64,000 bases of DNA from Erpobdella octoculata. Taxonomy: Eukaryota > Annelida > Clitellata > Hirudinida > Erpobdellidae. The notes under the pieces were generated by a model. It was not told where the DNA came from. It saw nothing but the letters and a program-made list of their open reading frames with translations, and did no database searches. Location: the NCBI GenBank assembly GCA_963978895.1, contig OZ022241.1, positions 12,393,856 to 12,457,855 of the forward strand. The letters are read 5' to 3'. A program made the translations under genes and the position numbers. Below are positions 15,884 through 27,155 of the stretch, piece after piece (within the stretch, counting starts at the first letter, position 1; each line of letters opens with the position of its first letter).

Positions 15884-17452
15884 ATGCTTGACTTACAAAA
15901 AACAGCGTTTTCATGCGATAGTCTTCCAACGACCGAAGATATCGCACTGACCAGCAGTCTCGACTGGCTGTTGAGACGTAATGGCACGTACGAAGAAAAT
16001 GCCATCAAAGTCAAAAGAGAGGCCGTTCTGCAAAACATCACGCAGTTGTTTGAACAATGGGTAAAAGACTTGGGCGTTAGCAAAAACCTTCCAGAATATC
16101 TGCTTTCCAGAGCGGGAGCGAGAGTTCTTTTGTTTGGTTCGGCCAGACTGGGAGTTAATGGCGAATCATCCGATATCGATGTTCTCTGTTTGGCGCCTGA
16201 TCACGTACGCCGACAGGACTTTTTCACTTTGTTTTACGCACTCCTTCAAAAACAAGACGGCATCGCAAACATAAACTGCGTTGTAGATGCATTCGTTCCC
16301 GTGATTACCATGACGTTCGACGGAATTGATGTAGATCTTCTCTTTGCCCGTCTCGGACTGCCATTCATACCTAGCGATCTAGACTTGTCGAACGATGCCG
16401 TTCTCATCAACATGGACCCAAAGTGCATAAGAAGCTTAAACGGACACCGAGTGACAGAACAAATTCTTTGCCTCGTGCCAAACGAGCACGCATTTAGTAT
16501 GACTCTGAGGGCTGTTAAACTGTGGGCTAAAAAAAGAGCCATTTATTCCAACGTTTATGGTTATCTCGGAGGAATCTCCTGGGCACTGCTTGTGGCCAAA
16601 ACGTGCCAACAATATCCGCGAGCCATGCCTGCTGTTCTTTTGCAAAAATTCTTTCTTATGTATTCAATGTGGCAATGGCCAAAGCCGGTACTGATAAGCC
16701 AACTGACCCAAAATAGTGACGGAATTGCCGAAATTCCTTCGTGGGACCCGAGAAATAACAAAAACGACGCATTACACTTTATGCCAGTCATTACACCGTG
16801 CTACCCGCACATCAATTCCACTTTTAATGTTTTCCCATCAACTATGACAGTCATCATCAAAGAATTTGAAAGAGGTCTCAAGTTAATGAACGCAATGAAC
16901 GACTGGAACGATCTTTTTGAGCCACTCGACTTTTTCGGCACGTTTCGCCACTTTTTTATTGTAACGATCGAGGCTAACAGCGAGAAAGACCACCAAGCCT
17001 GGCAGGGCTACTTTCAAACTAAGATAAAGTACCTTGCCAAGCAACTGGAAACAAATAAATGTATAGACTATATCCAAATTAACCCAGAATCATTTCCGGT
17101 CAAAGAGGCTGTCCGCATCAGCTCGCGTTGGTTCATCGGCCTCAAATTTGACCGCCATAAAGGACTAAACGTTGATCTCGGCCAAGAAACGACAGAGTTT
17201 GTGCGGTCCGTCCAGGCCGCCGTAAATCAACGTCAGAACGAAGGCAAGACTTTTAAAATTGAGTACACATCAAAAAAACAATTGCAAAAATTTATCGACC
17301 TTGACAAAGTTTCCAAATCTTCTCGTTTGTCCACGTCGACTCCGTTATCTCCGCCGGCCCAAGAACAAACGCAGCCGACAAAAAGAAAACGAGACCAAGA
17401 TAACTCTGACAGTATAGACGATCTGAAACCGTCCAAGAAGCTGAAGAAATAA
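15884..17452 (+). CDS. canonical poly(A) polymerase, array copy 1
   Basis: Template-independent polymerase that adds poly(A) tails to pre-mRNA 3' ends in the nucleus with the cleavage and polyadenylation complex (family knowledge, PAPOLA/Pap1). The 522 residues show a nucleotidyltransferase domain with FGSARLG (84-90), catalytic Asp97 and Asp99 (SSDIDV) and Asp151 (GIDVDLLFARL). SLNGHRVT (184-191) and KLWAKK...IYSN follow, with Lys212 and Tyr221 in the ATP-contact positions, then GYLGGISWA. The RNA-binding domain spans roughly 350-480, and basic nuclear signals are KRKR (500-503) and KKLKK (518-522). It is intronless and lacks the long Ser/Thr-rich tail of vertebrate PAPs. Ser205 replaces the Arg of the other copies. 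The start is the first ATG after the conserved leader. Confidence 0.95.
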   Translation: MLDLQKTAFSCDSLPTTEDIALTSSLDWLLRRNGTYEENAIKVKREAVLQNITQLFEQWVKDLGVSKNLPEYLLSRAGARVLLFGSARLGVNGESSDIDVLCLAPDHVRRQDFFTLFYALLQKQDGIANINCVVDAFVPVITMTFDGIDVDLLFARLGLPFIPSDLDLSNDAVLINMDPKCIRSLNGHRVTEQILCLVPNEHAFSMTLRAVKLWAKKRAIYSNVYGYLGGISWALLVAKTCQQYPRAMPAVLLQKFFLMYSMWQWPKPVLISQLTQNSDGIAEIPSWDPRNNKNDALHFMPVITPCYPHINSTFNVFPSTMTVIIKEFERGLKLMNAMNDWNDLFEPLDFFGTFRHFFIVTIEANSEKDHQAWQGYFQTKIKYLAKQLETNKCIDYIQINPESFPVKEAVRISSRWFIGLKFDRHKGLNVDLGQETTEFVRSVQAAVNQRQNEGKTFKIEYTSKKQLQKFIDLDKVSKSSRLSTSTPLSPPAQEQTQPTKRKRDQDNSDSIDDLKPSKKLKK

Positions 17453-18054
17453 GAAGCTGCCGTTAAATTCTTGCCCAACCGAATTTCGTGATCATAGTTT
17501 TGATAACGTCAAGCCAGCTTATATATATATATATATATCTATATATATATATATATATATATATATATATATATATATATATATATATATATATATATAT
17601 ATATATATATATATATATATATATATATATATATAGATAGATAGATAATCCCGCGTCTGTGTACGACGTTTTTGCGCGACGATTTGCGATCCATGGCAAA
17701 TTAGTTTATATATAATAATAATAATTATATGAATAATTTTTTCTATATAATTTAAGTAAGGTAAATATTTTTTTTATTTATTTAAACATTAAATGATAGT
17801 TTTAAATATTTTTGTTATTTATTTAAACATTAAATGATAGTTTGAACTTGTACACTGCCCTAAAGATAAAAAAAGGTGGCGCGGCAATCTAAAAATAATA
17901 AATAAGGAAATTTTAAGAAATCCGTCATTTTTGACGGTAAATCCCTAGTAAGCTAATAATGTTCAGTTCAATGTCAACAAACAAACACTGCGATCATCCA
18001 TTGCCAGTTTTGCATGAAAAACAAGAGAACTCGTTTCTGTTGGCTAAGCAAGGC
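17453..18054. repeat. array spacer 1: 3' flank, (TA)n and duplicated AT block
   Basis: After the stop comes ~65 bp of conserved 3' flank, then a (TA)n tract of about 115 bp (17521-17636), GATA repeats and a CGACGTTTTTGCGCGACG block. A duplicated ~50-bp segment with TTATTTATTTAAACATTAAA follows. AATAAA occurs near 17898, about 0.45 kb after the stop. The same spacer, differing mainly in TA length, separates all units. Confidence 0.85.
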
Positions 18055-18138
18055 GGCCAATAGGATGAAAGTTGATTGACGACAGCTTCCTCCTATTGGC
18101 TGAATGCTTGACCCGCATGCTTCGAATCGTCTATAAAA
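18055..18138 (+). promoter_or_regulatory. PAP copy 2 promoter: CCAAT, inverted CCAAT, TATA
   Basis: CCAAT at 18057-18061, ATTGG at 18095-18099 and TATAAAA at 18132-18138, with the same spacing as in copy 1. Confidence 0.75.
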
Positions 18139-18239
18139 GGCGGCTGGCCATCTGTTCGTTTCATTTCGTTTTAGACTCTTCATCGGTACGGACGAGCTGT
18201 TAGTTGCACTCGATTTTTTCTTAAGTAATTGTCATTGCA

Positions 18240-25401: not shown

Positions 25402-25485
25402 GGCCAATAGGATGAAAGTTGATTGACGACAGCTTCCTCCTATTGGCTGAATGCTTGACCCGCATGCTTCGAATCGTCTATAAAA
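25402..25485 (+). promoter_or_regulatory. PAP copy 4 promoter: CCAAT, inverted CCAAT, TATA
   Basis: CCAAT at 25404-25408, ATTGG at 25442-25446 and TATAAAA at 25479-25485. Confidence 0.75.
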
Positions 25486-25586
25486 GGCGGCTGGCCATCT
25501 GTTCGTTTCATTTCGTTTTAGACTCTTCATCGGTACGGACGAGCTGTTAGTTGCACTCGATTTTTTCTTAAGTAATTGTCATTGCA

Positions 25587-27155
25587 ATGCTTGACTTACA
25601 AAAAACAGCGTTTTCATGCGAAAGTCTTCCAACGACCGAAGATATCGCACTGACCAGCAGTCTCGACTGGCTGTTGAGAAGTAATGGCACGTACGAAGAA
25701 AATGCCATCAAAGTCAAAAGAGAGGCCGTTCTGCAAAACATCACGCAGTTGTTTGAACAATGGGTAAAAGACTTGGGCGTTAGCAAAAACCTTCCAGAAT
25801 ATCTGCTTTCCAGAGCGGGAGCGAGAGTTCTTTTGTTTGGTTCGGCCAGACTGGGAGTTAATGGCGAATCATCCGATATCGATGTTCTCTGTTTGACGCC
25901 TGATCACGTACGCCGACAGGACTTTTTCACTTTGTTTTACGCACTCCTTCAAAAACAAGACGGCATCGCAAACATAAACTGCGTTGTAGATGCATTCGTT
26001 CCCGTGATTACCATGACGTTCGACGGAATTGATGTAGATCTTCTCTTTGCCCGTCTCGGACTGCCATTCATACCTAGCGATCTAGACTTGTCGAACGATG
26101 CCGTTCTCATCAACATGGACCCAAAGTGCATAAGAAGCTTAAACGGACACCGAGTGACAGAACAAATTCTTTGCCTCGTGCCAAACGAGCACGCATTTAG
26201 AATGACTCTGAGGGCTGTTAAACTGTGGGCTAAAAAAAAAGCCATTTATTCCAACGTTTATGGTTATCTCGGAGGAATCTCCTGGGCACTGCTTGTGGCC
26301 AAAACGTGCCAACAATATCCGCGAGCCATGCCTGCTGTTCTTTTGCAAAAATTCTTTCTTATGTATTCAATGTGGCAATGGCCAAAGCCGGTACTGATAA
26401 GCCAACTGACCCAAAATAGTGACGGAATTGCCGAAATTCCTTCGTGGGACCCGAGAAATAACAAAAACGACGCATTACACTTTATGCCAGTCATTACACC
26501 GTGCTACCCGCACATCAATTCCACTTTTAATGTTTTCCCATCAACTATGACAGTCATCATCAAAGAATTTGAAAGAGGTCTCAAGTTAATGAACGCAATG
26601 AACGACTGGAACGATCTTTTTGAGCCACTCGACTTTTTCGGCACGTTTCGCCACTTTTTTATTGTAACGATCGAGGCTAACAGCGAGAAAGACCACCAAG
26701 CCTGGCAGGGCTACTTTCAAACTAAGATAAAGTACCTTGCCAAGCAACTGGAAACAAATAAATGTATAGATTATATCCAAATTAACCCAGAATCATTTCC
26801 GGTCAAAGAGGCTGTCCGCATAGGCTCGCGTTGGTTCATCGGCCTCAAATTTGACCGCCATAAAGGACTAAACGTTGATCTCGGCCAAGAAACGACAGAG
26901 TTTGTGCGGTCCGTCCAGGCCGCCGTAAATCAACGTCAGAACGAAGGCAAGACTTTTAAAATTGAGTACACATCAAAAAAACAATTGCAAAAATTTATCG
27001 ACCTTGACAAAGTTTCCAAATCTTCTCGTTTGTCCACGTCGACTCCGTTATCTCCGCCGGCCCAAGAACAAACGCAGCCGACAAAAAGAAAACGAGACCA
27101 AGATAACTCTGACAGTATAGACGATCTGAAACCGTCCAAGAAGCTGAAGAAATAA
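25587..27155 (+). CDS. canonical poly(A) polymerase, array copy 4
   Basis: Intact 522-residue copy of the copy-2 subtype (Glu12, Ser32, Gly413) with Lys218 as in copies 3 and 5. Thr104 replaces Ala in LCLAPDH, close behind the catalytic aspartates, and is unique to this copy. It is intronless, with the same leader and nuclear signals. Expected active; the effect of Thr104 is unknown. Confidence 0.95.
   Translation: MLDLQKTAFSCESLPTTEDIALTSSLDWLLRSNGTYEENAIKVKREAVLQNITQLFEQWVKDLGVSKNLPEYLLSRAGARVLLFGSARLGVNGESSDIDVLCLTPDHVRRQDFFTLFYALLQKQDGIANINCVVDAFVPVITMTFDGIDVDLLFARLGLPFIPSDLDLSNDAVLINMDPKCIRSLNGHRVTEQILCLVPNEHAFRMTLRAVKLWAKKKAIYSNVYGYLGGISWALLVAKTCQQYPRAMPAVLLQKFFLMYSMWQWPKPVLISQLTQNSDGIAEIPSWDPRNNKNDALHFMPVITPCYPHINSTFNVFPSTMTVIIKEFERGLKLMNAMNDWNDLFEPLDFFGTFRHFFIVTIEANSEKDHQAWQGYFQTKIKYLAKQLETNKCIDYIQINPESFPVKEAVRIGSRWFIGLKFDRHKGLNVDLGQETTEFVRSVQAAVNQRQNEGKTFKIEYTSKKQLQKFIDLDKVSKSSRLSTSTPLSPPAQEQTQPTKRKRDQDNSDSIDDLKPSKKLKK

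Follow-up and report, generated by a model that had tools for sequence, protein, structure and literature searches.

An array of intronless poly(A) polymerase genes, probably an ancient retrogene lineage amplified in tandem

Poly(A) polymerase genes in the window

The DNA analysed here, referred to as the window, is a 64-kb stretch (C4:12393856-12457855) of the 42.2-Mb contig C4, and it carries a tandem array of intronless poly(A) polymerase (PAP) genes. The whole assembly (385,989,122 bases in 94 contigs) was searched for related copies. Inspection of the window revealed four intronless open reading frames (ORFs) for PAP, designated c1 to c4, all on the forward strand and each 522 codons long from ATG to stop; an earlier sequence-only reading of this DNA had described four such intact genes, and their coordinates and frames were confirmed. 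The positions of all features are collected in Table 1.

The units are about 2.35 kb long and arranged head to tail; in the window their order is p0, c1, c2, pogo, c3, c4 and p5, where p0 and p5 are broken copies. The direct repeats of about 2.3 kb described previously hold for c1-c2 (2356 bp from start to start) and c3-c4 (2370 bp), but not for c2-c3, whose starts lie 4977 bp apart because a 2.7-kb pogo/Tigger element has inserted between them.

Broken copies had likewise been reported at both ends, and both were verified. The p0 copy has lost its promoter region and carries transposon-like sequence upstream of its leader instead, and it keeps an AATAAA about 107 bp past the stop codon. A transposon-end-like sequence before p0 (approximately 14700-14764), judged by eye to recur in inverted orientation inside the pogo element (20848-20890), may have caused this promoter loss. 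The p5 copy retains its promoter region (5 mismatches to c3 over 437 positions), and its coding part differs from c3 at a single position before the deletion and at many more in the 3' part, with the reading frame holding only to about codon 302. Broken units thus flank the four open copies, as had been claimed, but the array itself passes the window edge: the first base of the window lies inside another p5-type copy, which carries both p5 lesions (the 17-bp deletion and the 1-bp insertion) and is continuous with the upstream assembly sequence. The window segments 1-2669 and 28668-31321 are 98.95% identical.

Table 1. Coordinates of the PAP copies, their upstream regions and associated features (window positions unless a contig is given)
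Feature	Position	Strand	Remarks
3' part of truncated p5-type PAP copy	1-346	+	block 2 member, from C4:12393041 onward
p0, broken PAP copy	14764-15398	+	first ~63 codons joined directly to the final ~40 codons plus 3' flank
c1 upstream region	15446-15883	+	CCAAT -185, ATTGG -147, TATAAAA -110, initiator-like TCATTTC -81
PAP copy c1	15884-17452	+	522 codons, open; carries R205S
c2 upstream region	17803-18239	+	~17848-17985 overlaps a dispersed repeat (mostly 17848-17960); rest matched only in the array
PAP copy c2	18240-19808	+	522 codons, open
pogo/Tigger DNA transposon	20003-22690	+	DDE_1 and HTH_Tnp_Tc5; ORF 21070-22305, 411 codons; between c2 and c3
c3 upstream region	22780-23216	+	identical to c2 and c4 regions
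PAP copy c3	23217-24785	+	522 codons, open
c4 upstream region	25150-25586	+	identical to c2 and c3 regions
PAP copy c4	25587-27155	+	522 codons, open
p5, broken PAP copy	27416-29013	+	17-bp deletion, 1-bp insertion, 3' end truncated
Inverted PAP 3'-end fragment	44419-44837	-	from ~codon 451, with AATAAA; TA microsatellite on each side
Second intronless PAP gene, open	C4:15417526-15419475 (L037:5526-7475)	-	649 codons, PAP domains

Extent and turnover of the array

Across the assembly, the array spans about 56 kb (approximately C4:12366386-12422840) and comprises three blocks with six open copies, two of the blocks and two of the open copies (X and Y) lying upstream of the window. Block 1 consists of p0, copy Z (with a 1-base deletion) and p5; block 2 of p0, open copy X, pogo, open copy Y and p5; and block 3 is the window series given above. 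The blocks are spaced 18-29 kb apart and contain one, two and four near-complete units, respectively, and remnant copies occur in all three. Protein-level matches to c3 in the assembly numbered 42, of which 23 by hand count fell in the array (including the inverted fragment), one at the second intronless gene at 15.4 Mb on C4, ten at 4.05-4.10 Mb on C4, five at pieces of a gene on contig C8 and three on contig C2.

Repeats longer than 3 kb within the array region showed identities of 98.5-99.6%, the longest measuring 13.3 kb at 99.6%. The pogo copies of blocks 2 and 3 are 99.9% identical over 2,688 bp, and therefore the insertion probably predates the segmental duplication of the block that bears it. 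The flank following p5 (28668-39260) repeats the first 11 kb or so of the window (1-11148) in three pieces with 97.3-99.0% identity; this duplication of about 10 kb, which flanks the array, also holds a satellite with a 156/157-bp unit whose copy number differs (5.1 against 2.3 units).

The open copies differ pairwise by 2-13 of 1569 bases, and their fifteen variable codons (12, 32, 90, 104, 155, 171, 205, 218, 273, 395, 412, 413, 477, 506 and 514) occur in mosaic combinations; copy X, for example, matches c2 at codons 12-273 except codon 90, and matches c1 and c3 at codons 395-413. The coding regions of c2, c3 and c4 differ by 6-10 bases despite having identical 437-bp upstream regions. These mosaic variants and identical upstream regions read as the trace of unequal exchange and gene conversion, and the p5 pattern of a near-identical 5' part and a divergent 3' part would fit the same picture. 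The amplification is recent and in flux, and the array consists of near-identical head-to-tail units, each with an intronless ORF.

Upstream regions and 3' ends

Comparison of the 437 bp preceding each ATG showed that c1, set against the sequence shared by c2-c4, has 5 mismatches over 432 aligned sites and a further 11 gap columns. All four open window copies are preceded by CCAAT, ATTGG, TATAAAA and an initiator-like TCATTTC, the last of these 77-79 bp before the ATG with no intervening ATG in any of the four. CCAAT boxes, TATA boxes and initiators are promoter motifs with characteristic spacing, and each window copy is therefore predicted to be preceded by a TATA/initiator-like promoter.

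A genome search with a 395-bp upstream query, in which the best 40 of 482 candidates were scored, placed 13 matches in the array (10 full and 3 partial) and 27 elsewhere, the latter all confined to query positions 1-141, which constitute a dispersed repeat. The proximal 280 bp or so matched only the array among these 40. The common leader and predicted promoter described earlier are borne out by the near-identity of the four regions, with the qualification that their distal part is a dispersed repeat. Capture of the promoter from another gene was considered and rejected: among the best 40 of 482 candidates, a scope that may miss weaker matches, the core of about 280 bp matched the array alone.

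Downstream of the coding region, the proximal AATAAA about 107 bp past the stop is retained in p0 and in the inverted fragment. The next AATAAA in the near-complete copies lies 356-459 bp past the stop, and in the two copies followed by pogo (c2 and X) it falls within the transposon.

Domain composition, conserved residues and predicted fold

Pfam analysis identified PAP_NTPase, PAP_central and PAP_RNA-bind in this order (PF20750, PF04928 and PF04926, all above cut-off) in c1 and c3, the two window copies scanned; c2 and c4 differ from c3 by no more than 10 coding bases. The best sequence match of the array protein in the PDB was human PAPOLG (E 3e-131, 441.8 bits). An AlphaFold2 model of c3, built from an alignment of 30 sequences, had a mean predicted local distance difference test (pLDDT) score of 77.6, with scores below 50 for residues 1-10, for some of the stretch 279-315 and for everything from 478 onward. 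Foldseek searches with this model returned mammalian or yeast-type PAPs as the first 17 of the 50 matches listed, and the template modelling (TM) score against human PAPOLG was 0.77 when normalised to the query and 0.86 when normalised to the target.

Residues D97, D99 and D151, which correspond to the catalytic triad (bovine D113, D115 and D167), do not vary among the 30 aligned sequences; the correspondence agrees with the alignment to the bovine protein, which begins at an offset of 16. All four window copies retain these aspartates as well as G85, S86, K212, Y221 and G230, which presumably contact the nucleotide. The catalytic sets had been described as complete, which holds true of the aspartates and of those nucleotide-contact residues that were checked, but c1 carries R205S at a site where the 25 other PAPs compared have R (22) or K (3). 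Outside the window, open copy X carries G90E near the G-S motif, at a column invariant in the alignment. Proteins of the array clade are 516-522 aa long with a short basic tail. Taken together, these sequence and model features make nuclear polyadenylation the most likely role of the array product.

Intron-containing and intronless relatives in the same genome

An intron-containing parent had been proposed as something to look for in the assembly, and a candidate was found on C8, where a PAP gene extends over at least 9 exon blocks in order (approximately 25.8876-25.8914 Mb); its exon edges were judged by eye from GT/AG, some remaining unresolved. The protein joined from these blocks is 61% identical to a PAP of the leech Helobdella. 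The array ORFs match residues 1-522 in one piece, uninterrupted across the C8 intron positions, and the genome thus holds intronless copies alongside an intron-containing gene. The C8 gene is the best parent candidate for the intronless lineage, short of proof. A divergent multi-block PAP-like locus with weak matches on C2 (approximately 1.046-1.049 Mb; L045) may be a second canonical PAP.

The second intronless gene, about 3 Mb from the array, encodes a protein 45% identical to the array proteins, and its ORF spans all eight C8 exon junctions in uninterrupted tblastn stretches (junction positions having been set by hand). Two decayed PAP loci on C4, at 4.048-4.051 and 4.097-4.100 Mb, cross five and seven of the eight junctions. 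Together they gave 15 matches to the 15.4-Mb protein, 13 at 55-89% and two at 35-39% identity, most of them with stops. All clearly intronless PAP copies found lie on C4, a C2 fragment near 18.58 Mb being too short to judge, and this distribution suggests one retroposition followed by duplication at the DNA level.

Phylogenetic position

To place the array protein, we built trees of 57, 28 and 31 rows, hand-chosen from the best 120 of 1359 protein hits together with the window copy, the 31-row tree also including two genomic loci (the C8 and 15.4-Mb genes). The only close relative among the matches listed was P0005, a 516-aa protein with five member sequences from a 4,162-base ENA contig and 77% identity. 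In the 57-row tree, the window protein and P0005 formed a clade with a support of 100/100, its stem being 2.45 changes per site long; this stem measured 2.1-2.6 across four trees. In the 31-row tree, the array, P0005 and the 15.4-Mb gene grouped together (99/97), and with P0014 and P0019 they were set apart from C8, Helobdella and the other rows (97/92). This larger group, together with C8 and Helobdella, was in turn split from the remaining 22 rows (100/99). Among animal PAPs in general, the array clade fell with annelid PAPs and was split at 100/99 from vertebrate PAPOLG and other animals, in trees without vertebrate PAPOLA or PAPOLB.

Approximately unbiased (AU) tests gave p 0.021 for the array grouped with C8, p 0.0005 for the 15.4-Mb gene grouped with C8 and p 0.005 for the array grouped with P0014 and P0019 to the exclusion of the 15.4-Mb gene, these p values being weakened by the naming of the groups after inspection of the tree. 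They speak against a grouping of either the array or the 15.4-Mb gene with C8.

The annelid placement fits the mitochondrial contig of the assembly, on which genes occur on one strand, with TGA read as tryptophan, in the order nad4L-nad4-nad1-nad3-nad2-cox1-cox2-cox3-nad6-cob-atp6, presumably the annelid ground plan. Names were assigned by eye except for COX1 (Pfam), and unannotated stretches lie where the rRNAs (nad4-nad1) and atp8 (cox2-cox3) are expected.

Conservation and selection

Differences between c3 and P0005 were scored over 493 columns against conservation in 25 other PAPs, hand-chosen from the hits that also supplied the tree rows. They occurred at 15 of 184 columns conserved at 90% or more and at 70 of 216 columns conserved below 70% (Fisher p 1.7e-9, with 93 intermediate columns, 19 of them differing, set aside). 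The differences avoid conserved columns, a pattern of long-term purifying selection on the lineage of the array and P0005. Between the copies themselves, for which dN/dS had been suggested as a check, a hand count over the six open copies gave 9 replacement changes against 7 silent ones, with a ratio of 0.36 (one-sided p 0.04); the four window copies taken by themselves show 7 and 5 (p 0.097, not significant).

Other elements in the window

The terminal repeats of the pogo element begin CCGTATTTTTTCGCATATA, and the best database relatives of its ORF share about 56-69% identity with a portion of the query; those with organism names are scattered over turtles, molluscs and fish. Further downstream, a 476-codon reverse transcriptase ORF of a long interspersed nuclear element (LINE) lies on the reverse strand (40891-42321); among the 120 matches listed of 2212, a 325-aa database protein from an ENA contig covers 62% of it at 99% identity, and DNA of the host or of a close relative has therefore probably been sequenced elsewhere. 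On the reverse strand, a SAP-domain ORF and an acidic ORF that comes after it in a different frame (45318-46884) probably form one spliced host gene, which resembles hnRNP U. A tRNA-like Rfam match at 47443-47500 (31.7 bits against a threshold of 29, E 0.011), the only such match in the window, is perhaps a tRNA-derived short interspersed nuclear element (SINE); ARAGORN predicted no tRNAs over the window, including at this position.

Proposed history of the array

The reading that we favour, and that we hold to be probable, is that of an ancient PAP retrogene lineage under purifying selection which has been amplified in tandem and whose product is a nuclear PAP. The missing introns imply that spliced mRNA from a canonical nuclear PAP of an annelid was reverse-transcribed and inserted, and at the level of sequence the gene now has TATA/CCAAT-type promoter elements upstream. 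Purifying selection continued to act on the lineage as its identity to other PAPs fell to about 44%. One member then formed the tandem array, which, as the mosaic variants and higher-order repeats indicate, grew through unequal exchange and the duplication of segments while its copies were homogenised. The product would most likely be a nuclear poly(A) polymerase with three-aspartate nucleotidyl transfer, the PAP RNA-binding fold and a basic tail resembling a nuclear localisation signal, and it would probably supply extra or stage-specific polyadenylation, by analogy with the mammalian intronless testis PAP.

Much of this had been foreseen in the sequence-only reading, which proposed an ancestral retrocopy that gained a promoter and was then amplified, perhaps for high or germline-specific dosage, a function that stands as a hypothesis. 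The intron-bearing PAP, the predicted promoter and the clear amplification agree with that proposal, but the retrocopy is old and has a family of its own: the long stem, the 77%-identical relative and the second intronless PAP with its decayed kin on C4 indicate that it is not young. All these copies most likely descend from a single old intronless lineage that spread through duplication of DNA.

A number of observations weigh against this interpretation. Viewed by eye, with no dedicated search, the flanks showed neither a poly(A) tail nor a target-site duplication, and the case for retroposition therefore rests on the missing introns; the insertion is old, and the 3' end of the array unit is now a TA microsatellite. 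When the 15.4-Mb gene was omitted from a quick tree, the branch separating the intronless group from C8 dropped to a support of 41. The long stem leaves the annelid placement open to long-branch attraction, a real worry, and P0014, P0019 and the 15.4-Mb gene share long branches with the array clade. At 19 of 117 invariant columns, c3 deviates from all 25 PAPs compared. Single copies may be weakly constrained, given G90E in X and R205S in c1 at conserved sites. Finally, none of the seven near-complete copies (Z, X, Y and c1-c4) has the proximal AATAAA, the TA microsatellite having replaced it.

Several of these points bear on an explanation that we consider unlikely but the most serious of the competitors, namely that the array is a macrosatellite of non-functional retrocopies whose ORFs are open only through recent amplification, no copy mattering now. 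With so few differences between open copies, there has been little time for decay; broken p0- and p5-type copies occur in the three blocks, and one block has a frame-broken copy as its only near-complete unit; two of the six open copies have changes at conserved sites; the proximal AATAAA is missing; and the replacement-to-silent ratio is weakly below neutral. Constraint at the level of the lineage, seen between c3 and P0005, speaks against such an array of dead copies, as do the identity of the c2, c3 and c4 upstream regions over their full length and the leader from initiator to ATG, which lacks an upstream ATG in every window copy.

That the array genes are expressed as a neofunctionalised nucleotidyltransferase outside ordinary mRNA polyadenylation is less probable again. 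The length of the stem branch in all four trees would suit such a change of function, as would the altered invariant columns, among them Y87 next to the G-S motif, which is A in c3 and likewise in P0005, but D97, D99, D151, K212, Y221 and G230 are retained, along with the three PAP domains and the basic C-terminus.

An assembly artefact, with haplotypes or repeat copies stacked in tandem, is improbable to a slightly greater degree. The identity of the long inter-block repeats lies within the range of heterozygosity of many invertebrates, but the contig is 42.2 Mb long with no N in the window, three blocks of differing make-up exceed two haplotypes, and two of the blocks carry the pogo insertion while the third, judging by spacing, lacks it.

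A viral or mobile-element origin rather than a host mRNA, suggested by an intronless, amplified gene with transposons around and inside the array, is very improbable, as the trees put the array nearest annelid PAPs (with the long-branch caveat). A search for relatives among viral contigs confirmed none (0 of 2 and 0 of 41 pattern-matched stretches).

Beyond the ancient, amplified retrogene lineage favoured here, a wider and distinctly more tentative proposal is that annelids own an old intronless PAP subfamily independent of PAPOLB, of which the present array is a concerted, dosage-amplified form serving tissue- or stage-specific (perhaps germline) machinery. Autoregulation of this array is conceivable because every near-complete copy has lost its proximal poly(A) signal.

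Comparison with known systems

A literature search found no amplified PAP array, a weak negative since the spelling "poly(A)" was probably unmatched. Canonical PAP genes are multi-exon, and the core enzymes of 3'-end processing are generally encoded by low-copy genes. The array PAP has its domain order, catalytic residues and (predicted) fold in common with PAPOLA, PAPOLG and hiiragi, and differs from canonical metazoan PAPs in its short basic tail, most aligned relatives being longer-tailed.

A close parallel is mammalian PAPOLB (TPAP), a single-copy gene derived from PAPOLA; an intronless testis PAP was reportedly described by Lee et al. in 2000. Both genomes pair an intron-containing PAP with an intronless copy of a canonical nuclear PAP, but the array clade is nearest annelid PAPs and has been amplified. 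We read the array retrogene as convergent with PAPOLB, which PMC3287031 describes as a testis-specific PAP variant.

In organisation, the array resembles D4Z4/DUX4, a tandem array with a retrogene in every unit and with a poly(A) site outside the repeat unit at issue (PMC2965761). The likeness lies in the retrogene in each unit and in near-complete PAP units that lack the proximal AATAAA; the difference is that DUX4 is a transcription factor whereas PAP is a core mRNA-processing enzyme, encoded here in units of about 2.35 kb in spaced blocks. USP17 genes are also intronless. They are named among multicopy tandem genes in PMC4063668, and differ from the array in protein family. The rat Rtdpoz genes likewise form a retrogene cluster, and differ in being mammalian TRAF/POZ-domain genes with testis expression, as reported in PMC2724483.

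A PAP retrogene in another phylum, with an intronless paralogue and an amplified array, would suggest that PAP has been recruited repeatedly. The array would offer a natural system for asking what extra PAP is for, and also poses the question of whether the loss of the proximal poly(A) signal feeds back on PAP dosage.

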